Assembly (NCBI GenBank): GCA_019694355.1
Contig: JAIBCB010000001.1
Location: 649,001-713,000 of the forward strand
DNA: 64,000 nt
Source of the DNA: Pyrinomonadaceae bacterium
Lineage (GTDB): Bacteria > Acidobacteriota > Blastocatellia > Pyrinomonadales > Pyrinomonadaceae
Reading direction: 5' to 3'
In this document: one piece after another, positions 48,648-60,951 of the stretch
How the letters are laid out: every line of letters begins with the position of its first letter
Numbering within the stretch: position 1 is the stretch's first letter
Notes under the pieces: model-generated
Seen by the model: the letters and a program-made list of their open reading frames with translations, nothing else
Database searches by the model: none
What the model was told of the DNA's origin: nothing
Translations under genes and position numbers: made by a program

Positions 48648-49276
48648 GTCCCCGAAGGGGACAAATGAAATAGCGTCGGGAGAATCCCGACGAAACGTTG
48701 CATATTTATAGAATCGTCCCTGTAAGGGACAAGCAAAACATGGCACAGACGCTATTCCAAAGCTATTTCCACATAGTCTTTTCGACGAAAAACCGCTTCG
48801 ATTTTATTCAGCCGGAGATCGAGGATGAATTGTTCGCCTACATCGGTGGGATCGTCAAAGGCTTCGACGCCAAACTATTGACCGCAGGAGGCGTCGCGAA
48901 TCATGATCATTTGTTGATATCAATGGGCAAGAATCATCTCGTTCCGAATTTGATAGGAGCCGTAAAACGCGGCAGCTCCAAATGGGTAAAGACCAAAGGA
49001 GGTATGTATTCGAAATTCGCTTGGCAAGACGGCTACTCGGCGTTCTCGGTTGGCTTTTCTCAGATCCCAGTTGTCGAGAAATATATTGCGAACCAAAAGG
49101 AGCATCACAAGAAGCACTTATTCGAGGACGAAATGCGCGGTTTCTACCGTAAATACAAGATCGATTTTGATGAGAAATATGTTTGGGACTGATTCGTCCC
49201 TTTCAGGGACGGGCGTCATTTGCGATCGTGTCGTCGGGTGTTACCCGACGCTATTGAATATGTCCCTTTCAGGGAC
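48648..49276 (+). mobile_element. REP-flanked IS200-like transposase unit (REPtron)
   Basis: A transposase gene is bracketed by three palindromes on each side. Left: GTCCCCGAAGGGGAC (48648-48662), CGTCGGG-agaat-CCCGACG (48674-48692), GTCCCTGTAAGGGAC (48716-48730). Right: GTCCCTTTCAGGGAC (49196-49210), CGTCGGG-tgtta-CCCGACG (49232-49250), GTCCCTTTCAGGGAC (49262-49276). The A-B-A order on both sides is symmetrical. Confidence 0.88.
48740..49192 (+). CDS. IS200/REP-associated tyrosine transposase
   Basis: A 150-residue Y1 transposase. The metal-binding pair lies in [13 protein letters not shown] near residue 55, with Asp between the two His where a hydrophobic residue is usual. The nucleophilic Tyr lies in [14 protein letters not shown] near residue 114, the typical Y-I-x-x-Q-x-x-HH arrangement. 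It sits inside a symmetrical set of REP palindromes. The ATG at 48740 starts [14 protein letters not shown], matching the family; an upstream in-frame start lies in the palindromes. Confidence 0.85.
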
Positions 49277-50704: not shown

Positions 50705-50748
50705 AGGACGCTGATCTTTGCCGATCAAGCAAATTGACCGCGGGGCAA

Positions 50749-51423
50749 ATGACAAGATCGAACAATCCTTCTCGGGTCAATCCAATTCTCGCAACCGCGA
50801 GTCAAGAACTTAGAGACAATCTGACTTCGCACGGTAACCACCGTCATTATTTTCCGAACGAAGAACTTTTCGCCGTTGGGGAAGAGGCCGACTATCTCCC
50901 GATCATATTGAACGGCCGCGTCAAGATGGTGCAGTTTCCGGAACCGGGAAAGGAAGTGATAATCGGGGTCTTCGGTGCCGGTGAGATGTTCGCCGTTCCT
51001 CCGGTCGTCGATGGTGACGTTTATCCTGCGTCGGCGTATGCCCTCGAAGAGTCTGAGATCTTGTTGCTCCACCGCGACGATGTCTTCAAGCTTCTTGAGA
51101 AATCGCCAGAATTCACTCTGGCACTGTTACGTTGGATGTCGTCGATGCTTCGGCAAAAGACTGCGTTGATAAGGACCCTTGCGGGTGGTTCCGCCGAACA
51201 AAGGATCGCCGGCGTGCTGATCCGATTGTTTACGGCATCAAGCGACGAACCGCCGCACAAGGTGAAACTTCGGCGCGAAGACATCGCCAGGATGGCCGGC
51301 CTTACTACCGAAACGGCGATCAGGACGATACGACATTTGGCTGCGATCGGCGATATTCGGATCGTGCGCGGCAAGATCCTGATCGACTCGATCGATGGAC
51401 TGTCATCCCACCTCAAAGGTTGA
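50749..51423 (+). CDS. Crp/Fnr-family transcriptional regulator
   Basis: A 224-residue regulator. The cyclic-nucleotide-binding-like beta barrel covers about residues 15-125 and the dimer helix 125-150. The winged helix includes LRREDIARMAGLTTETAIRTIRHL near residue 180, whose recognition helix resembles FNR/DNR proteins. There are no N-terminal Cys residues for a 4Fe-4S cluster, so it is not a classic O2-sensing FNR; a haem- or NO-sensing DNR-like or CRP-like mode is possible. It lies 238 bases upstream of the molybdoenzyme operon and faces the same way. Confidence 0.88.
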   Translation: MTRSNNPSRVNPILATASQELRDNLTSHGNHRHYFPNEELFAVGEEADYLPIILNGRVKMVQFPEPGKEVIIGVFGAGEMFAVPPVVDGDVYPASAYALEESEILLLHRDDVFKLLEKSPEFTLALLRWMSSMLRQKTALIRTLAGGSAEQRIAGVLIRLFTASSDEPPHKVKLRREDIARMAGLTTETAIRTIRHLAAIGDIRIVRGKILIDSIDGLSSHLKG

Positions 51424-51660: not shown

Positions 51661-52749
51661 ATGGAGGCACGGCAAACTCCGCAGAAGCTTAATTATAAGA
51701 ACCCGACCATAATTGGCCTGGTCTCATCTATCGTCCTTACCGCCCTAGTCATTATCGGTTCTCGAAATCTAGAGAATTTCGATTCAGCCCTTTTTGGATA
51801 CACGATCGCAAGCATCGTCGCCTTCGGCGCGATCGCTTTCCGGTATGCGGTGTGGCTCCAAAGGCCGGCAACAAGGATCTATTTCAAGCGAGGCCTTCAA
51901 CTTTTCTTCAACAGAAAGAAGTTAGGCAAGAATGCAAAGAGTGCGGTCGGAAGTATCGCAACGAATCTCGTAGAGCAGCGCTTTATCTTCAAACGCGCAC
52001 GACAGCGTTGGATAATGCACTTTTTCATTATGTGGGGCTGTATCCTTGCGGCAGCTATCACGTTTCCTCTCGTCTTTGGTTGGGTGCATTTTACGCTTGA
52101 AGGCGATATGGGCTATCGGGCTCACCTCTTTGGCTTTCCGCTCATTCTTATGAACGGGCGAAGCCTGATCGCGTGGATCACATTCCACGGGCTCGATATC
52201 TCGGCCGTGATGGTGATGATCGGGTGTGCGATCGCGATCCAAAGGCGTTTGAACGACCGCGGAGCTATCGCGTTGCAGCAATTCCTGCTTGATTTCGTGC
52301 CGCATCTTCTGCTCATTGCGATCTCGGTCTCCGGCCTGATGCTGACGGCTTCAAGCCTCTGGTTCCAAGGCTATATGTATTCTTTCATATCGCTTTCGCA
52401 CCAAGCTCTTGTTGTAATGACGCTCTTTTTCCTGCCTTTCGGAAAGCTCTTTCATATCGTTCAGAGACCGGCCTCCGTCGGAGTGGAACTCTATCAGAAT
52501 CGTTCGGCAGAAATGGAACAAGCTGTTTGTCCTCGCTGCAGATCAAGTTTTGTTGGAAAAATGTGGATGGATGACCTCAAAAAGCTCGTCGATGAGCTTG
52601 GTTATGATTACCGCCTGAAGAATGGCCACACGCTGCAGGATTATTGTCCGCGCTGTAAACGCGTAATGCGCGGTCTTGCATACGCCAAGGCTCCGGACAA
52701 GGCTGAACCTGTATTTTTCGGTGCCAGAGTTGGAGGACCGAATGTCTAA
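51661..52749 (+). CDS. Cytochrome b-like membrane subunit with a C-terminal zinc ribbon
   Basis: A 362-residue integral membrane protein with about six spans. His residues in or near spans (WIMHFF near residue 119, TFHGLDI near 177, VPHLLLI near 217, LSHQALVV near 247 and GKLFHIVQRP near 262) can supply haem b ligands in the manner of NarI/HdrE-type subunits. The last 80 residues are soluble and carry two CPRC motifs (near 286 and 328), a rubredoxin-like zinc or iron site. Its end overlaps the molybdoenzyme gene by 8 bases. Predicted job: quinol-linked electron transfer. Confidence 0.75.
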   Translation: MEARQTPQKLNYKNPTIIGLVSSIVLTALVIIGSRNLENFDSALFGYTIASIVAFGAIAFRYAVWLQRPATRIYFKRGLQLFFNRKKLGKNAKSAVGSIATNLVEQRFIFKRARQRWIMHFFIMWGCILAAAITFPLVFGWVHFTLEGDMGYRAHLFGFPLILMNGRSLIAWITFHGLDISAVMVMIGCAIAIQRRLNDRGAIALQQFLLDFVPHLLLIAISVSGLMLTASSLWFQGYMYSFISLSHQALVVMTLFFLPFGKLFHIVQRPASVGVELYQNRSAEMEQAVCPRCRSSFVGKMWMDDLKKLVDELGYDYRLKNGHTLQDYCPRCKRVMRGLAYAKAPDKAEPVFFGARVGGPNV

Positions 52750-54976
52750 AGTTGAGAATCTTAGCGAAATAATTGAGAAATACGGCCCGCATCTTTATGA
52801 TGCGCCGATCGATGGTTGGCATGCTGATCGAAAGATCGACCGTGCCGTACCAACGCACTGCCCATACTGCGGTGTACAGTGCGGAATGAACTTGCTGGTG
52901 TCGGATGAGCAGGTCGTTGGATTTGAACCGCGATATGATTTCCCGGTCAACGAAGGCAAGCTTTGCCCAAAAGGTGTCACGGCCTATCTTCAAACCCATC
53001 ACCCTGATCGTCTGCTTTACCCGCTCGTTAAGAAGAATGGTGTCTTTGAGCGTGCGACTTGGGATGATGCCCTCGACCTCGTTGTTTCGCGAATAAAGGA
53101 GATCCAGGCGAAATACGGAAAGAATGCAATCGGCGTTTATTCCGGATCTTCCTTGACGACCGAAAAGACCTATGTGATGGGCAAGTTTGCCCGGATCGGC
53201 CTCGGTACACGCTATGTCGATTACAACGGCCGGTTGTGCATGGTCAGCGCCGCTGCCGGAAACAACAAAGCGTTCGGTGTTGATCGCGTTGCAAACTCTT
53301 GGGACGATATTCCGCTTGCCGAGGTCTTGATGATCGCCGGGTCGAATTGCGCGGAGACGTTCCCGATTCTCAATAAATATCTTTGGCAGCAACGCGACAA
53401 TGGAGGCCGCTGGATCGTCATCGACCCGCGAGCAACCGCGACCGCTCGCCAAGGCGATATCCACCTCCAACTGAAGCCGGGAACGGACGTTGCGGTCGCG
53501 AACGGCCTCCTAAATGTCATCATTCGCGAAGGCCTTATCGACGAGGAATTCATCTCCAAGCACACAAACGACTGGGATGCGGTGAAAGCGGTCATCGATA
53601 AATATCCGCCTTCGAAAGCGGGAGAGCTGTCCGGAATCGATCCGGCCAAGATCGAGAAGGCCGCGATCCTTTACGGCCAAGCTCGAACGGGAATGATCCT
53701 CCACGCCCGCGGTATCGAGCATCATTCGAACGGCGTTGACAACGTCTTGAGCTACATAAATATTGTTCTTGCAACAGGCAAGATAGGCGAGCCTGGCCGG
53801 GGCTACGGAACAATTACCGGACAGGGCAACGGCCAAGGCGGTCGCGAACATGGCCAAAAGGCGGACCAACTGCCCGGCCAGCGTTCGATGACGAACCCCG
53901 AGGATCGCAAGTATATGTGCGAGTTCTGGGGGCTGCCGGAAGATGAGCTTCCAGAAGCCGGAGTTTCCGTCGTCGAAATGTACGAAAAGATGCGGGAAGG
54001 CGAGATCAAAGGGCTTATTTCCACGTGCAATAACGGCATGGTCTCACTGCCCGACGTGAATGCGATCCGCCAATCGCTCGAGGGCCTCGAGTTTTATGTA
54101 AATATCGATTTCTTTATGTCTGAGTCTTCGAGGTTTGCAGATGTCGTTCTGCCGACGACTACGTGGGCTGAAGATGAGGGAGTAACGGCAAGCGCTGAAG
54201 CTCGTGTCGTAAAGATCAACAAGGCTATTGATCCCGTCGGCGAATCAAAACCCGATTGGTGGATAGCGAAAGAGATTGCTCGTCGGATGGGACGCGAGAA
54301 GTACTTTAAGTTCGACACTCCGCGTGAGATATTTGACGAACTTCGGGCAGCTTCTAAAGGCGGAAAAGCTGATTATTATGGGATCACATACGAAAAGATC
54401 GACGCTCAGAACGGTGTAATGTGGCCGTGTCCCACGGAAGAAAGTAAGGGAACGCCCCGAATGTTCGAGGACAAAAAGTTCTATCACCCCGACGGAAAGG
54501 CCAAATTTTTTGCGATCGAATACAAGGGCCCGGCCGAGGTGCCTGATGAAGAGTATCCGCTTGCACTAACGACCGGACGCGTAGTCTATCAGTATCTTTC
54601 GGGGAACCAAACGAGGCGTATCGGCTTCCTCGTTCAGCAGTGTCCCGAGCCATACGTCGAGATCCATCCGGAGACAGCTGCGAAGATGGGAATCACAGAT
54701 GGCGAAAACGTCAAGGTTATTTCGAGACGCGGAGAAGGCATCTTTCCGGCACTCGTTGTCAAAACGATCCGTAAGGATACAATATTCATTCCATACCATT
54801 GGGGAGATGCCAAGGCCGCGAATCTTCTTACCAACGCAAAGCTTGATCCGGTGTCGAAGATACCGGAATTCAAGGCGTGCGCAGCGAAGATCGAGAAGAT
54901 CGGATCGCGGGAACTTCCTATTTTGGGAGCATCACGCAGAGGCTCGAGTTTAAGCGAAGCTCAAAGGGGGAAATAA
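52742..54976 (+). CDS. Molybdopterin oxidoreductase of the NasA/NarB (nitrate reductase) type
   Basis: A 744-residue Mo-bis-MGD enzyme with no signal peptide, so cytoplasmic. The 4Fe-4S motif CPYCGVQCGM, completed by KLCPKG 27 residues later, is at residues 40-78. NGRLCMVSAAAG near residue 163 provides a Cys Mo ligand as in Nas/Nap nitrate reductases, and GQGNGQGGREHGQKADQ near residue 362 is a cofactor-binding loop. No nitrite reductase is nearby. The start at 52742 (MSKVENLSEI) replaces a longer frame from 52676 that overlaps the upstream gene. Nitrate is the best substrate guess, unproven. Confidence 0.85.
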   Translation: MSKVENLSEIIEKYGPHLYDAPIDGWHADRKIDRAVPTHCPYCGVQCGMNLLVSDEQVVGFEPRYDFPVNEGKLCPKGVTAYLQTHHPDRLLYPLVKKNGVFERATWDDALDLVVSRIKEIQAKYGKNAIGVYSGSSLTTEKTYVMGKFARIGLGTRYVDYNGRLCMVSAAAGNNKAFGVDRVANSWDDIPLAEVLMIAGSNCAETFPILNKYLWQQRDNGGRWIVIDPRATATARQGDIHLQLKPGTDVAVANGLLNVIIREGLIDEEFISKHTNDWDAVKAVIDKYPPSKAGELSGIDPAKIEKAAILYGQARTGMILHARGIEHHSNGVDNVLSYINIVLATGKIGEPGRGYGTITGQGNGQGGREHGQKADQLPGQRSMTNPEDRKYMCEFWGLPEDELPEAGVSVVEMYEKMREGEIKGLISTCNNGMVSLPDVNAIRQSLEGLEFYVNIDFFMSESSRFADVVLPTTTWAEDEGVTASAEARVVKINKAIDPVGESKPDWWIAKEIARRMGREKYFKFDTPREIFDELRAASKGGKADYYGITYEKIDAQNGVMWPCPTEESKGTPRMFEDKKFYHPDGKAKFFAIEYKGPAEVPDEEYPLALTTGRVVYQYLSGNQTRRIGFLVQQCPEPYVEIHPETAAKMGITDGENVKVISRRGEGIFPALVVKTIRKDTIFIPYHWGDAKAANLLTNAKLDPVSKIPEFKACAAKIEKIGSRELPILGASRRGSSLSEAQRGK

Positions 54977-55630
54977 ATGCAGGAAACGATGTTCGTCGAT
55001 CCGCAGCGATGTATTGGCTGCCGATCTTGTGTGGCTGCATGTCGAGAGTGCTCGACCCACAAAGGCTACTCGATGATCTTTGTTGATTTTTTCGATCGCG
55101 GCGAAACCACGGCGACGATGCCCACGATCTGTATGCACTGCGCCGAGCCGACCTGTGCTCAAGTCTGTCCCGCGGATGCGATCAAACAGAATGAGGACGG
55201 TGTCGTAATGACCGCTCTAAAACCGCGTTGTCTCGACTGCCGCAATTGCGTAAATGCCTGTCCGTTCGGAGTGCCGAAATACAACTCGGCGATGCACCTT
55301 CAGATGAAATGCGATATGTGCTACGACCGTTCATCAGAAGGCTTGAAGCCTATGTGTGCAAGCGTCTGTCCGACCGGGGCCCTTACATTTGGTAAGTACG
55401 AAGATGTCGTGCCCCTACGCCGGACGAAACCGGTTAACATCCATTACTTCGGCAATCAAAAGGTCGAAACCAAAGTTTATTTAATGATGCCGACAAACCA
55501 CACGGATGCGATCCAGGTTGACGGCGATACGGAATTTGAAGAGCATCTCTCAGCGAAGGCCGGTGATGAGGCTTCGTGGCTAGAGAGCGAGATGGGGGAA
55601 ACGGATAACTCAAATGAGTTCCGATCTTAG
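54977..55630 (+). CDS. Four-cluster ferredoxin-type electron-transfer subunit
   Basis: A 217-residue protein of the NarH/DmsB/NrfC style with four Cys motifs: CIGCRSCVAAC near residue 12, CMHCAEPTCAQVCP near 52, CLDCRNCVNACP near 85 and CDMCYDR...CASVCP near 114-134. It should carry electrons between the membrane subunit and the molybdoenzyme. The gene begins directly after the molybdoenzyme stop. The acidic last 50 residues are extra to the family core. Confidence 0.88.
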   Translation: MQETMFVDPQRCIGCRSCVAACRECSTHKGYSMIFVDFFDRGETTATMPTICMHCAEPTCAQVCPADAIKQNEDGVVMTALKPRCLDCRNCVNACPFGVPKYNSAMHLQMKCDMCYDRSSEGLKPMCASVCPTGALTFGKYEDVVPLRRTKPVNIHYFGNQKVETKVYLMMPTNHTDAIQVDGDTEFEEHLSAKAGDEASWLESEMGETDNSNEFRS

Positions 55631-55645
55631 GGAGAATGCAGTGAT

Positions 55646-56203
55646 ATGGCGGCTTCAGATGTAACAACATGTCCTATCTCGGATGAGTTGGACGTACGCA
55701 AGGCGACGGATTCTTATCAAGCTGAGTTTCCGTATAATCGGGATGCCGAGTCCGAGGTCACTCGGCGGGAGTTCTGCAATTTCCTGGTACTCGCGTCAGG
55801 CACATTCTTCGTTGGCACGGTCGGATTCTCGGCGAAATCAGCATTTGATGCCGCTAAGGAACGAGTTCTAGCACCGGCGGCCATCGAAGGTGCGGAGAAT
55901 CTTGCGCCGGGATCGTCCCTTAACTTTTCGTACCCTCGTCCAGAAGATACAGCGATCTTGGTCCGCACTTCATCGGGCGATTTTAAGGCTTACGGTCAAA
56001 AATGCACTCACCTTTCGTGCCCCGTCTATTATTCGAAAGAGCACAAACGTCTCGAATGCCCGTGCCACGAAGGCGGCTTTAGCGAGACGACGGGTGAGGT
56101 GCTATACGGACCGCCTCCAAGGCCGCTCGATAAGATCGATGTCGAGCTTCGCGACGGTAAGGTGGTAGCATTCAATAGGGAGGTTCGTGGAAATGAGGTC
56201 TAA
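55646..56203 (+). CDS. Rieske 2Fe-2S protein with a Tat-like membrane anchor
   Basis: A 185-residue protein. A cytoplasmic N-terminus is followed by TRREFCNFL near residue 39, a twin-arginine-like start of one membrane span (about 45-62). The Rieske motifs CTHLSC near residue 119 and CPCHEGGF near residue 139 give the Cys-His/Cys-His cluster ligands. Export by Tat would put the cluster outside the membrane, opposite the cytoplasmic molybdoenzyme. It starts 15 bases after the ferredoxin gene. Confidence 0.85.
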   Translation: MAASDVTTCPISDELDVRKATDSYQAEFPYNRDAESEVTRREFCNFLVLASGTFFVGTVGFSAKSAFDAAKERVLAPAAIEGAENLAPGSSLNFSYPRPEDTAILVRTSSGDFKAYGQKCTHLSCPVYYSKEHKRLECPCHEGGFSETTGEVLYGPPPRPLDKIDVELRDGKVVAFNREVRGNEV

Positions 56204-56489
56204 ACCCGCAAGATCAGTTGGCTTTAGTAACCCGAATCGTCCGGTATCAAGAGGCAGGAGGTCGGTCGCTCAAGCCCGCCTTGCCCTTTTGGTCATGATC
56301 AATATCGCTCAAATGTGGGTGTTGGCGGCCGCGGTTGAAGCGGGCCTCGCACACGAGGTCGATCACCTCCTGCCGCTTAGTCTTGCTTCGGCAGTATGTT
56401 TCTTTATCTCTCTCACAATATTCTTTTGGTGGAAGCCGGTTGGCATCACCAAGCGAAGTATAAATGAAACAAAAGGTTCACGATTTTGA
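56193..56489 (+). CDS. Small two-span membrane protein of the operon
   Basis: A 98-residue protein with a basic N-terminus and two spans near residues 30-52 and 60-82. GGGAGG at 56176 fits the ATG at 56193 better than a GTG two codons earlier. It overlaps the Rieske gene by 11 bases and the DUF3565 gene by 26, so it is translated as part of the operon. Likely an assembly or anchor subunit; no family known to me. Confidence 0.7.
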   Translation: MRSKPARSVGFSNPNRPVSRGRRSVAQARLALLVMINIAQMWVLAAAVEAGLAHEVDHLLPLSLASAVCFFISLTIFFWWKPVGITKRSINETKGSRF

Positions 56490-56667
56490 ATTGGACGACG
56501 AAGGCCATTGGATGGCCAAACTCTCCTGCGGTCACTATCAACACGTTAGGCATGATCCACCGCTGCGTGTGCGAGAATGGGTGCTTACAAGCGAAGGCCG
56601 CCTCAGCCGGGTCGGTCAAGAGCTTAATTGTATAAAGTGTGACAACGACCAACCCCGCGACTTCTGA
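56464..56667 (+). CDS. DUF3565-family protein
   Basis: A 67-residue protein with the DUF3565 pattern: DDEGHWMAKLSCGHYQHVRHDPP in the first half and a closing CIKC motif. CGH-QHVRH and CxxC suggest a metal site. Function unknown. It overlaps the small membrane gene before it and the channel gene after it, each in a different frame. Confidence 0.8.
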   Translation: MKQKVHDFELDDEGHWMAKLSCGHYQHVRHDPPLRVREWVLTSEGRLSRVGQELNCIKCDNDQPRDF

Positions 56668-57727
56668 GAAAGAAGAAACGGCTCCTCGCCACGGCCGCTT
56701 TATGCGTGCCGCGGCAGATCTTTTCCCCGGATATTTTTCGATGGTGATGGCTACCGGGATAACCTCGGTCGCCGCGAACCTAATGGGTTATCCGGGAATT
56801 GGCTGGGGCCTTCTTTATGTAAACATCATGGCTTTTGCCGTCCTGGCCGTCCTCTTCATAACCCGTATCATCTTCTTTTTCGACCGGATCGAAAAAGATC
56901 TGATCGATCACCTGCGAGGGCCGGGTTTTTTGACCGTGGTTGCGGGCTGCTGCGTTCTTGGCAGTCAACTCATCCTCGTCGCAGAAAGCTACGCTCCTGC
57001 AGTTTACTTCTGGGTGATCGGCTTTGTTCTCTGGATCATCATTACGTATGCATTTTTTACGGCGATGACGATCCGCGAAGGGAAGCCGCCGCTAGAGAAA
57101 GGGATCAGCGGCACTTGGCTGATCGCGACCGTTGCCACTCAGTCAGTTTCCGTGCTCGGCACGCTGCTAGCAGCCCATTACCGCACTTACAGTCACGAAT
57201 TTTTGTTCTTTACACTCTGTATGTTTTTTACGGGGTGTATGCTCTACCTGATCCTGATCACGCTGATCTTTTATCGCTTCACCTTTCTTGAGATCACGCG
57301 CGAAAACCTGGGGCCGCCATACTGGATCAATATGGGAGCCGTGGCAATAACCACCCTTGCAGCCTCACGGCTGATCTTGGCGGGAAATGAGTTTCATTTG
57401 ATCGGCGAGTTAGTGCCGTTCCTAAAAGGATTTACGCTCTTCTTCTGGGCGGCCGGAACCTGGTGGGTCCCGTTGCTTGTCATCCTTGGCCTCTGGCGGC
57501 ATCTCTACAAGAAACTGCCCATTCGATACGATCCGCAGTATTGGAGCATGGTGTTTCCCTTGGGAATGTACACCGTCTGCACCTTCCAGCTATCGAAGGC
57601 TCTCGACTTTCCATCGTTGATGCTGATCCCAAAGATAGTCGTCTATGTCGCCCTGTTCGCGTGGACCGCTGTCTTCATTGGATTGATCTACACCCTGGCA
57701 AACAGCTTCTCGTCGAAAAGGGACTAG
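56639..57727 (+). CDS. TDT/SLAC1-family (TehA-like) anion channel
   Basis: A 362-residue membrane protein with about ten spans. DLFPGYFSMVMATGITSVA near residue 28 and the following layout match the TehA/Mae1/SLAC1 transporter family, whose members pass anions such as sulfite, malate, chloride and nitrate. The start is a GTG that overlaps the DUF3565 gene by 29 bases. As the last gene of a molybdoenzyme operon it could move the enzyme's anionic substrate or product. Confidence 0.85.
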   Translation: MTTTNPATSEKEETAPRHGRFMRAAADLFPGYFSMVMATGITSVAANLMGYPGIGWGLLYVNIMAFAVLAVLFITRIIFFFDRIEKDLIDHLRGPGFLTVVAGCCVLGSQLILVAESYAPAVYFWVIGFVLWIIITYAFFTAMTIREGKPPLEKGISGTWLIATVATQSVSVLGTLLAAHYRTYSHEFLFFTLCMFFTGCMLYLILITLIFYRFTFLEITRENLGPPYWINMGAVAITTLAASRLILAGNEFHLIGELVPFLKGFTLFFWAAGTWWVPLLVILGLWRHLYKKLPIRYDPQYWSMVFPLGMYTVCTFQLSKALDFPSLMLIPKIVVYVALFAWTAVFIGLIYTLANSFSSKRD

Positions 57728-57821: not shown

Positions 57822-58694
57822 CTAATGTTCGCAGCCGCAGCCGCAGGAATGAACTTGAGCATGGCCGTGGGAGTGCACGTGCGATTGCTCGTGCGAGTGG
57901 GAGAATTCGTGACCATGCTCATGGACGCCACAAGCCTGTTCTTGAAGAGCCCTGGCATCCGATACTGAACCGCTATCTTCCATCTCGATAGCCTTTGGGA
58001 AAAGGATGTTGTTTTCGAGATGAATATGTTGATGAAGATCCTTTTCAAGGCCTTCAATTGCAGCAAAAACCGTCTTGTATTTAAAACATGCGTCCGGCGG
58101 GATCTCTAAGTTATTAGTGAGATCACGGATCTCTTGAAGCATTTCCGCCGCCCTATCGTGGTCGCTGACCATAACTGCTATCGGGTTTCGCGTAGTGCCA
58201 AACGGTGCCGGCGGCCGCGGCATTCCGAAATTGAATGAGCTCTCCATCAGCGAAATGTAAGGGAAGAGCATTCGCTCCTCTCGCTGCATATGGACCTCCA
58301 TCTCGCTCTTGAGCTCAGAAAAGACCCGATTGACCTCAAATAGTTCCGGATGATTGCCTCCGTGCACAGTGCAAACTCTGTTTAGGAGGGCAGCGATACG
58401 ATCCATTTCCTCCCGAGTGAAATTGTGGTGACAGCGGACGATATGATCCGAAAGGGCAGAAAGCGACATATTGGCAAAATCAAGCTCGACAGCCTCACCG
58501 TTCTGCGGTTTGGCCTCCTCGGCAGCCAAAAGATCAGACAACTCCGTAAGGGTGACGCCCTTCATTTCGCAAGCCTCGGCGATCGGCTTTTTACCGTGAC
58601 AACAATAGTCGATCCCTAATTTTTCAAAGACGCGTTTTGCCGGTGGGAATGTAACGGCATAATCTGCGACGGTTCGTGTAACATCAATTTGCAT
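57822..58694 (-). CDS. ric: Iron-sulfur cluster repair protein RIC (ScdA/YtfE/NorA) with a His-rich tail
   Basis: A 290-residue di-iron protein that repairs Fe-S clusters damaged by nitric oxide or oxidants. The N-terminal ScdA domain holds GIDYCCHGKKP near residue 28. The hemerythrin-like domain has its His/Glu ligands in VRCHHNFTREE near residue 88, MEVHMQREERMLFPYI near residue 132, VSDHDRAAEM near residue 174 and HIHLENNILFPKA near residue 222. From about residue 255 a tail with some ten His and four Cys follows, not usual in the family. It converges on the molybdoenzyme operon. Confidence 0.9.
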   Translation of the reverse strand: MQIDVTRTVADYAVTFPPAKRVFEKLGIDYCCHGKKPIAEACEMKGVTLTELSDLLAAEEAKPQNGEAVELDFANMSLSALSDHIVRCHHNFTREEMDRIAALLNRVCTVHGGNHPELFEVNRVFSELKSEMEVHMQREERMLFPYISLMESSFNFGMPRPPAPFGTTRNPIAVMVSDHDRAAEMLQEIRDLTNNLEIPPDACFKYKTVFAAIEGLEKDLHQHIHLENNILFPKAIEMEDSGSVSDARALQEQACGVHEHGHEFSHSHEQSHVHSHGHAQVHSCGCGCEH

Positions 58695-58838: not shown

Positions 58839-59028
58839 AAAGGACAAATTATTTTTCGGAAATGCACATTTTGCTGTAAAACACCTTTGGTTTTGGTTGA
58901 TTTACCCCTAAAATCGATATTGATAAAGTGCGGAAGTGAATCGGTATCCTTTGGCCGTATCGAGAGTTGGATCGCCGTCTTCCATTTGTTCCGCAGGCAG
59001 TCAAACCAGTTTTTTAGAGAACCATAGA

Positions 59029-60951
59029 ATGACTAAGATCAATGATTTCGTAGTTCGCTTTGCGAATGTCAATGGGACAGGTTCGGCCTCGGCCAATGCG
59101 CTCTTCACACGTGCGGTCTTTCGAATGGGTGTGCCGGTTACGCCGAAGAACATTTTTCCTTCAAACATACAAGGCCTGCCCACTTGGTATGAGGTGCGTG
59201 TCTCTGAAAAGGGTTATCTAGGGCGACGTGAAGGGGTCGATCTCGTCGTCGCGGTCAATCCGCAGTCGATGAAAAAGGACTACGCGGATGTGCTGCCTGG
59301 CGGTTATTTCGTTTTTGACAGCTCAAAGCCTCTGCCACCGGGATATGACCGCGAGGACATCGAGCACATTGCGATCCCGCTGATGGAGCTTGCCAATGCG
59401 GAGTACACCGACGCACGGCAAAGGCAGCTTTTTAAGAACATTATTTACATTGGCGCTCTTGTCACTTTGTTCGACATTGAGTTTGCCGTCATAGAACAGC
59501 TTATCAGTGAGCAGTTTCGAGGAAAGGAGCGATTGATCGAGCCGAACATCAAAGCTCTGAGCATCGGAAAACAATGGGTTCTTGACAATATGAACCCAGA
59601 AACCTTCTCCCTGTCAGTAGAGCGTCGTGACCTTCTTAAAGGGAAGATCCTTTACAACGGGAACTCGGCTTGTGCCCTTGGGGCGATCTATGGCGGAGCA
59701 ACGGTTGCGGCGTGGTATCCGATCACCCCATCAACTTCTGTGGTCGATGCGTTCTCAAAATATGCGGGAAAGTATCGTGTTGACGCAGAGACAGGCAGGA
59801 ATAATTATGCGATCGTGCAAGCTGAGGATGAGCTTGCGGCGATCGGAATGGTCATGGGAGCATCTTGGAACGGAGCTCGTTCTTTTACCGCGACGAGCGG
59901 CCCCGGAGTTTCTTTAATGAGCGAATTCCTGGGCCTCGGATACTTCGCCGAGATCCCGACCGTACTCATTGACGTACAGCGAACCGGGCCTTCGACAGGG
60001 ATGCCGACCCGCACTCAGCAATCTGACCTGCTTTCAACCGCCTATGCTTCCCATGGTGATACGAAACATCCGCTCTTACTGCCGGCAACGCCGAAAGAAT
60101 GCTTCGAGATGACGGCGATGGCATTCGACCTGACGGAACGTTTGCAGACTCCTGTGATCGTCGTAACAGACCTTGACCTTGGGATGAATGACCATATAAC
60201 GGATGAGCTGACGTGGGATGATTCGAAGGTTTATGATCGCGGCAAAGTGCTTTCCGCCGAGCAACTCGATACTATCTACGGCGACGCGAATAACAATGGC
60301 GGCCCATCATCCCAGGGTGAAGGGCAGCTTACGGCCTTTAACGGCCGGTTTGGCCGCTACCTTGATGTTGATGGCGATGGCATCCCATTTCGAACCATTC
60401 CGGGGACGCATCCAAGTCGTGGGGCTTTTACAACCCGCGGTTCTTCTAGAGATGAGTACGCGATCTATACAGAAGACGGGGCTGCGTATAAAAGAAATGT
60501 CGATCGCCTTGCCCTAAAGTTCGATACCGCAAAAGAACTCGTTCCGCAGCCTGAGTTTATTGCGGCCGGGCAACGAGGCAGCACCTCGGAGGTCAGCAAG
60601 AACTCTAAAGACGGAATAATTTACTTTGGCACATCTACATACGCTGCAATGGAAGCTCTCGAGATGTTCGAACGAGAAGAGATCCACATAGACGCGATGC
60701 GACCGCGTGCGTTTCCATTCGGGAAAGCATTCACCGAATTTGTTGCAAGCCACGACCGCATCTTTGTCGTCGAACAAAATCGCGATGCACAGTTCCGCAG
60801 CCTGATGTTGATCGAACTTGGCATCGCTTCGTCAGAACGCCGAGTGTCACCAACGGGGTTGTCCGATAAACTGATCCCCGTCCTAAACTACGACGGCACG
60901 CCGATCACGGCAGATAATATTTACAGGCAGGTGAAAGAAGCTTTTCTGTGA
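59029..60951 (+). CDS. korA: 2-oxoacid:ferredoxin oxidoreductase, fused gamma-alpha subunit
   Basis: A 640-residue subunit of a 2-oxoglutarate- or pyruvate-type ferredoxin oxidoreductase. Residues 1-190 are the gamma domain (FANVNGTGSASANALFTRAVFRMG). The alpha domain from about residue 205 contains GNSACALGAIYGGA, AWYPITPSTS and the SGPGVSLMSEFLGLGYFAEIP segment near residue 288. ATG at 59029 gives the family start; the frame is open from 58936. The beta subunit begins at 63851, unusually far away. Confidence 0.9.
   Translation: MTKINDFVVRFANVNGTGSASANALFTRAVFRMGVPVTPKNIFPSNIQGLPTWYEVRVSEKGYLGRREGVDLVVAVNPQSMKKDYADVLPGGYFVFDSSKPLPPGYDREDIEHIAIPLMELANAEYTDARQRQLFKNIIYIGALVTLFDIEFAVIEQLISEQFRGKERLIEPNIKALSIGKQWVLDNMNPETFSLSVERRDLLKGKILYNGNSACALGAIYGGATVAAWYPITPSTSVVDAFSKYAGKYRVDAETGRNNYAIVQAEDELAAIGMVMGASWNGARSFTATSGPGVSLMSEFLGLGYFAEIPTVLIDVQRTGPSTGMPTRTQQSDLLSTAYASHGDTKHPLLLPATPKECFEMTAMAFDLTERLQTPVIVVTDLDLGMNDHITDELTWDDSKVYDRGKVLSAEQLDTIYGDANNNGGPSSQGEGQLTAFNGRFGRYLDVDGDGIPFRTIPGTHPSRGAFTTRGSSRDEYAIYTEDGAAYKRNVDRLALKFDTAKELVPQPEFIAAGQRGSTSEVSKNSKDGIIYFGTSTYAAMEALEMFEREEIHIDAMRPRAFPFGKAFTEFVASHDRIFVVEQNRDAQFRSLMLIELGIASSERRVSPTGLSDKLIPVLNYDGTPITADNIYRQVKEAFL

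Follow-up and report, generated by a model that had tools for sequence, protein, structure and literature searches.

The closest described counterparts of the operon analysed here, hereafter the cassette, are nitrate reductases. NasC of Bacillus subtilis (NF047855) resembles the cassette enzyme in its catalytic family, its Cys-Met active site, its predicted cytoplasmic location and a linked nitrate transporter. However, NasC has NasB and NirBD, whereas the partners in the cassette are a four-cluster ferredoxin, a cytochrome b of the NarI fold and a Rieske protein. The likeness to NarGHI lies in the NarI-fold cytochrome b, the four-cluster subunit, the proposed cytoplasmic site of nitrate reduction and the presence of NarK. 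The difference is that the catalytic subunit is of the NasC type (Cys ligand, 744 aa) rather than NarG (about 1220 aa), and that a Rieske protein, a ribbon and a DUF6755 protein are added. A Rieske protein and a cytochrome b are also found in one cluster in the haloarchaeal nitrate reductase (PMC4683180 and references therein). As we understand that system, it consists of a NarG-type enzyme outside the membrane with a bc-type cytochrome b, whereas the cassette enzyme is NasC-type, predicted to be inside, and accompanied by a NarI fold. In B. bataviensis, nasC occurs with a Rieske-type protein and HCP (PMC3475470), but that report mentions neither a cytochrome b nor a four-cluster ferredoxin and regards the enzyme as assimilatory.

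Wells and colleagues concluded that the clade of NasA/NasC, AioA and NapA is never associated with canonical four-cluster or membrane-anchor subunits (PMC7331816), and NasA and NasC are exclusively assimilatory according to two phylogenomic surveys (PMC7331816, PMC10100899). Since such subunits and non-assimilatory roles are denied to NasC and NasA in these surveys, the cassette would be a new and widespread counter-example. According to the original prediction, no described complex of such composition was known, and none was found in the open-access full texts that were searched, the subscription literature being outside this search. The cassette, which is conserved across several phyla, most likely encodes a nitrate reductase of the NasC type that is linked to quinol and works in the cytoplasm. 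We assign a probability of roughly three in four to the reading that the product is a membrane-bound quinol:nitrate oxidoreductase whose active site lies in the cytoplasm.

The window is a stretch of 64,000 nucleotides from a Pyrinomonadaceae genome of 3.4 Mb that is 98.7% complete. At positions 51661–57727 it carries seven open reading frames, all on the forward strand and overlapping or abutting one another (gaps of at most 15 nt), at the positions and in the arrangement first described. The first (51661–52749) encodes the NarI-fold cytochrome b with a C-terminal CxxC...CPxC ribbon, which serves as the membrane anchor and presumably holds the quinol site. The ATG of the second gene, at 52742, lies within the first, giving an overlap of 8 nt; this gene (52742–54976) encodes the catalytic subunit, a NasC-type molybdoenzyme of 744 aa with a Cys-Met active-site signature and no twin-arginine signal. 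It is followed with no gap by a NarH/DmsB/HybA-type ferredoxin subunit for four [4Fe-4S] clusters (54977–55630; Fer4_11 and other families) and, after 15 nt, by a Rieske protein with an N-terminal membrane anchor and an invariant twin-arginine motif (55646–56203). The remaining genes overlap by 17, 26 and 29 nt, respectively: a small two-span membrane protein that is DUF6755-like (56187–56489), an accessory DUF3565 protein (56464–56667; 98.8 bits, cut-off 25) and a TDT/SLAC1-family anion channel in the slot of NarK (56639–57727; SLAC1 169.7 bits, cut-off 27.9). The molybdoenzyme, ferredoxin, Rieske, DUF3565 and SLAC1 assignments made from the letters were all recovered by Pfam and NCBIfam matches. 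The two-span protein is present with its two spans, but its match to DUF6755 (24.3 bits) is slightly below the cut-off of 27.

The core of the cassette consists of four genes in the order cytochrome b, molybdoenzyme, ferredoxin and Rieske. In a sample of 297 genomes from 166 genera of the phylum, the cytochrome b was present in 45 genomes and 23 genera, and the core was complete and in order in 33 of the 35 loci fetched. A scan of named genomes yielded at least 502 relatives, and the 80 loci that were kept include an Armatimonadota MAG as well as members of Acidobacteriota, Planctomycetota, Chloroflexota and Myxococcota. After removal of near-duplicates, such that the cytochromes b are less than 99% identical among themselves, the full core was found in 87 distinct chromosomal or MAG loci of Acidobacteriota, Planctomycetota, Chloroflexota and Myxococcota. 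This recurrence is far beyond chance for the gene set, and as many of the loci are MAG contigs, individual taxa may be mis-binned. Isolates that carry the cassette include Pyrinomonas methylaliphatogenes K22, Lacipirellula limnantheis and Deinococcus strains, and among the matches listed, those closest to the window by cytochrome b come from Acidobacteria MAGs (97%) and Pyrinomonadaceae MAGs. The Deinococcus plasmids carry, in this order, genes for cytochrome b, molybdoenzyme, ferredoxin, Rieske, DUF6755 (a gene left unnamed on one plasmid) and NarK.

The co-occurrence of all seven families had been proposed as a check. The four-gene core is kept, but the channel and DUF3565 are exchangeable and DUF6755 is detected in about half of the loci (41 of the 87 with a full core, a lower bound as the gene is short). 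The conserved core thus comprises four genes, perhaps five, with the channel and DUF3565 as exchangeable accessories. The DUF3565 gene is confined to relatives of the window's family, and a 65-aa ORF that precedes the Deinococcus cassettes was discarded as a DUF3565 candidate, being by eye unlike the protein in the window. No mention of DUF3565 or DUF6755 was found in the open literature searched. Apparent fusions of cytochrome b to molybdoenzyme, molybdoenzyme to ferredoxin and ferredoxin to Rieske proved to be start-site run-ons or to lie in other frames, leaving NarK-cytochrome b as the sole real fusion. In the deposited records of the Deinococcus plasmids (L151, L152, L153) the cytochrome b is named "MFS transporter", a label that was perhaps carried over from the fusion proteins.

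The molybdoenzyme contains the Pfam domains Molybdopterin, Fe4S4 and Molydop_binding. It had been labeled NasA/NarB-type, a name that gives way to NasC-type on the NCBIfam scores and the tree. The NasC model NF047855 scores 859 bits, under its cut-off of 1100, which is reached by no genome in the phylum sample, while NarG (TIGR01580) scores 58 bits vs a cut-off of 1084 and NapA 325 bits vs 904. The formate dehydrogenase alpha model TIGR01591, at 675.8 bits, is above its cut-off of 666.25. For calibration, reference formate dehydrogenases score 732–1064 with the latter model and 438–541 with the NasC model, and NirBD-linked NasA proteins score 429–502 and 358–434, respectively. Over the phylum sample the NasC scores are bimodal: the cassette enzymes and four other genes score 750 or more, and the rest 602 or less. 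Three of these four genes (L168, L169 and L170) adjoin NirB, the fourth being L171. Every cassette row has active-site motifs of the nitrate-reductase type, DYNGRLCM and (T/V)GQ(G/A)NGQGxRE. In formate dehydrogenases, by comparison, the Cys/Sec ligand is followed by His (Gln in one row) and RGQNNVQG is present in nearly all rows, so that two residues of catalysis, this His and the Arg of RGQNN, are Met and Thr in the enzyme of the window. The phylogeny comprised 67 rows and was built by a quick method with a midpoint root, several long reference branches and no B. subtilis NasC among the references; in it, 40 cassette enzymes form one clade (SH-aLRT 99) that is sister to NirBD-linked NasC (joint clade SH-aLRT 100), with the formate dehydrogenases next and NasA and NapA farther out.

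A substrate for the enzyme is suggested by the transporter slot. In or beside the core, NarK was found in 38 of the 87 loci, TDT in 34, both in none and neither in 15, where 14.9 co-occurrences would be expected (Fisher p about 1e-12). NarK and cytochrome b form a single ORF in 19 loci, all on one branch. The best family for the cassette NarK is TIGR00886, at 191–278 bits and below the cut-off of 311.7. Nine of the 10 sampled phylum genomes with a TDT cassette lack NarK genome-wide (E 1e-25); the tenth, G115, encodes NarG at a further locus. In the window genome NarK is missing even at E 0.001, although a true NarG is encoded elsewhere in it. The channel is thus the obvious substitute for NarK, which would make nitrate or nitrite its substrate. 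The operon also lends itself well to testing whether SLAC1-type channels can transport nitrate or nitrite in bacteria. A PDB sequence search with the channel returned no relative. The Geothrix-like cassettes (L061–L069) have neither NarK nor TDT nearby, apart from a TDT gene on the other strand in L066, and several of these genomes have a NarG gene roughly 15–30 kb from the cassette.

The cytochrome b was matched by no Pfam family, that for bc-type cytochrome b included, and by NCBIfam only weakly, to QmoC; a Deinococcus relative narrowly misses the nitrate reductase gamma family (22.2 bits vs a cut-off of 22.9). PDB sequence searches with the single sequence or a profile found no relative, and a Foldseek search of the PDB with the AlphaFold model (pLDDT 81.5) gave chance-level matches, none of them significant. 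In a VIA-align comparison the model resembled EtfD (Z 12.1) and NarI (Z 9.7–9.9), the next row being at 6.3, and helical bundles reach middling Z by chance. H120, H247, H265, C290, C293 and C329 are kept in all 116 rows and C332 in 115. The spacing of 18 between H247 and H265 equals that between H187 and H205 in NarI. There is no clear equivalent of H66, the distal-heme ligand of NarI; H176 is a possible substitute, but it is missing from 10 of the 116 rows (kept in 106), so the fourth heme ligand is unsure and two hemes are not certain. The loop between helices 2 and 3 has a mean of 9.8 K/R vs 1.8 in loop 3-4, and by the positive-inside rule the charged loop and the C-terminal ribbon, which lie on the same side, would be in the cytoplasm. 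The ribbon might bind zinc, or else iron in a rubredoxin-like site within the electron path. The NarI-like subunit with a ribbon is thus supported by the model fold and by four near-invariant cysteines, as is the four-cluster ferredoxin by 16 cluster cysteines that, along with a further cysteine, are conserved in every row that has a residue at the position (98–99 rows).

For the Rieske protein, membrane anchoring had been proposed and agrees with the Pfam match and the N-terminal twin-arginine anchor. The RR of the RRxF motif is found in 96 of 96 rows ahead of a hydrophobic stretch, which fits insertion by the Tat system and a location on the outer face. The additional cysteines that form the disulfide in bc-type Rieske proteins are conserved in 95 rows; like the twin-arginine anchor, they are a feature of the bc1/b6f type.

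The preferred reading starts from features read in the letters: the composition and order of the genes, the single clade, the active-site residues, the NarI-like model fold, the exchange and fusion of NarK and the missing assimilatory partners. From these we infer the subunit contacts, the direction of electron flow, energy conservation, the role of the Rieske protein and the channel substrate. The NarI-fold cytochrome b would oxidise quinol close to the outer side of the membrane, and the electrons would cross via its b-hemes to the ferredoxin subunit and run along its four clusters. They would then enter the NasC-type subunit through its N-terminal [4Fe-4S] cluster and reach the Mo cofactor, where nitrate would be reduced to nitrite in the cytoplasm. 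Protons would be freed outside and used inside, which would conserve energy in the manner of NarGHI. From its anchored position on the outer face, the Rieske protein would most likely gate or share quinol oxidation, and the TDT channel may bring nitrate in and/or let nitrite out, the job of NarK in sister operons. The original prediction of a quinol module of Rieske and cytochrome b that feeds a cytoplasmic reductase, with a channel for nitrate or nitrite, is largely supported and fits all the tests made, namely the exchange and fusion of NarK, the active site and the sisterhood with NasC. Besides the uncertain distal-heme ligand, the Foldseek result, the score with the formate dehydrogenase model and the Geothrix-like cassettes, two further points count against the reading: the core has no cytochrome c and thus no obvious partner for the Rieske protein, and some carriers (Pyrinomonas, Deinococcus) are aerobes.

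One alternative is an assimilatory nitrate reductase that uses quinol instead of NADH or ferredoxin, its nitrite being handled by an assimilatory nitrite reductase encoded at some other locus; this would change the purpose of the enzyme but not necessarily the path of its electrons. The sisterhood with assimilatory NasC speaks for it, as do the aerobic carriers (Pyrinomonas, L103, and the Deinococcus plasmids), the published annotation in which the Pyrinomonas nitrate reductase is listed as assimilatory (PMC5900883), and a siroheme nitrite/sulfite reductase (NIR_SIR) in 16 of the 45 carriers. However, NIR_SIR is missing from the other 29 carriers, from each of the 13 genomes sampled within the window's genus and from the window genome, and it is not associated with the cassette (114 of 252 other genomes have it). 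The association is with the ammonifying nitrite reductase NrfA, which occurs in 28 of the 45 cassette genomes vs 49 of the 252 others (p 2e-8), counted per genome, and in 12 of 23 cassette genera vs 28 of 143 (p 0.003); this genus step, by which relatedness was handled, was applied to NrfA only. NarG shows a weaker association (11 of 45 vs 17 of 252). Some siblings encode NrfA in or beside the operon, in part directly after the cassette, and L036 has it next to the core; the earlier remark that no nitrite reductase is here holds for the operon and genome of the window but not in general. NIR_SIR, NrfA and NirS are all missing from the window genome, and none of its NirK matches exceeds the cut-off, so the enzyme would be expected to yield nitrite as the product there. 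The operon itself encodes no NirBD or NasB-type NADH partner; with the assimilatory partners missing, assimilation is unlikely in that genome. A second, separate NasC is found besides the cassette in G086 and G125, adjoining NirB and NirD in G086, which argues for a division of labour. Overall, an assimilatory role is unlikely.

Comparably doubtful is the idea of the same enzyme with the Rieske protein in another circuit, either passing one quinol electron to an outer acceptor (cytochrome c, NrfA) in a bifurcating manner or letting outer donors feed nitrate reduction. The bc-type extra cysteines, the predicted outer location and the co-occurrence of NrfA are in its favor, but the core encodes no outer acceptor and 17 of the 45 carriers are without NrfA. 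A NarI-type cytochrome is also known to have one quinol site, which we count against this circuit. A bolder extension, which we consider unlikely, is a further nitrate-reductase architecture spread over several phyla: a Nar/bc hybrid in which a NasC-type enzyme has turned respiratory through the NarI-fold/Rieske module and the Rieske protein bifurcates, sending one electron outward and one to nitrate.

It is very improbable that the complex is periplasmic and Aio-like, with the molybdoenzyme exported by attachment to a Rieske protein that bears the Tat signal. The Rieske profile is equally close to AioB (65.0 bits) and b6f Rieske (64.3 bits), and the twin-arginine motif is on the Rieske protein only, none having been seen at the N-terminus of the molybdoenzyme as read. 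However, the NarK or TDT of the operon and the NarK-cytochrome b fusion would be useless to a periplasmic reductase, and a cytoplasmic site is also suggested by the ancestry of NasC, which is cytoplasmic, by the NarI-like fold and by the ribbon. Least probable of all is a formate dehydrogenase passing electrons to the quinone pool, a reading strongly disfavoured despite the formate dehydrogenase model above its cut-off and the best solved relatives being formate dehydrogenases (the PDB matches included no NasC or NasA structure), since the NasC model gives the protein of the window the better score (859 vs 676) where true formate dehydrogenases reverse this order, both catalytic residues are replaced, and NarK is fused or exchanged in sister operons.

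If the preferred reading of a quinol-linked nitrate reductase is right, the consequences concern surveys of nitrate reduction. Nitrate respiration in Danish wastewater was judged by narGHI and napAB (PMC8100337), and the cassette is invisible to the standard markers narG and napA. As these markers miss it, the formate dehydrogenase model is passed and the cytochrome b is called a transporter, nitrate reduction in Acidobacteriota, Planctomycetota and others may be under-counted. In a survey of Acidobacteria, G. mallensis and strain KBS 96 were reported to reduce nitrate to nitrite with only nasA found (PMC5900883); the cassette is a testable explanation, if those strains carry it.

The surroundings of the operon gave some further observations. 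A Crp/Fnr-family gene upstream (50734–51423, forward strand) likely encodes the local regulator; it has no cysteines and is therefore not an Fe-S sensing FNR. No FNR box was found upstream of the operon, and the sole near-match nearby is at 56289 within the two-span gene, the number of matches being at chance level. Farther upstream, an ORF at 48698–49192 resembles by eye a REP-associated/IS200-type transposase. On the reverse strand, the operon adjoins a gene for a RIC/YtfE iron-sulfur repair di-iron protein (57822–58694; TIGR03652, 227 bits, cut-off 204.7) with a His/Cys-rich C-terminal tail, and RIC genes are frequent neighbors of the cassette, which fits nitrosative stress. At another locus (L070, G000:C1:735000-754500), some 46 kb away from the cassette, a cluster with NarGH adjoins a set that includes the ActB-like protein of alternative complex III; the genome has no NarK to serve this NarGH. 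Downstream in the window, at 59026–60951, is a gene for a 2-oxoacid:acceptor oxidoreductase alpha subunit (TIGR03710, 526 bits), which occupies the same place in the closest relatives.
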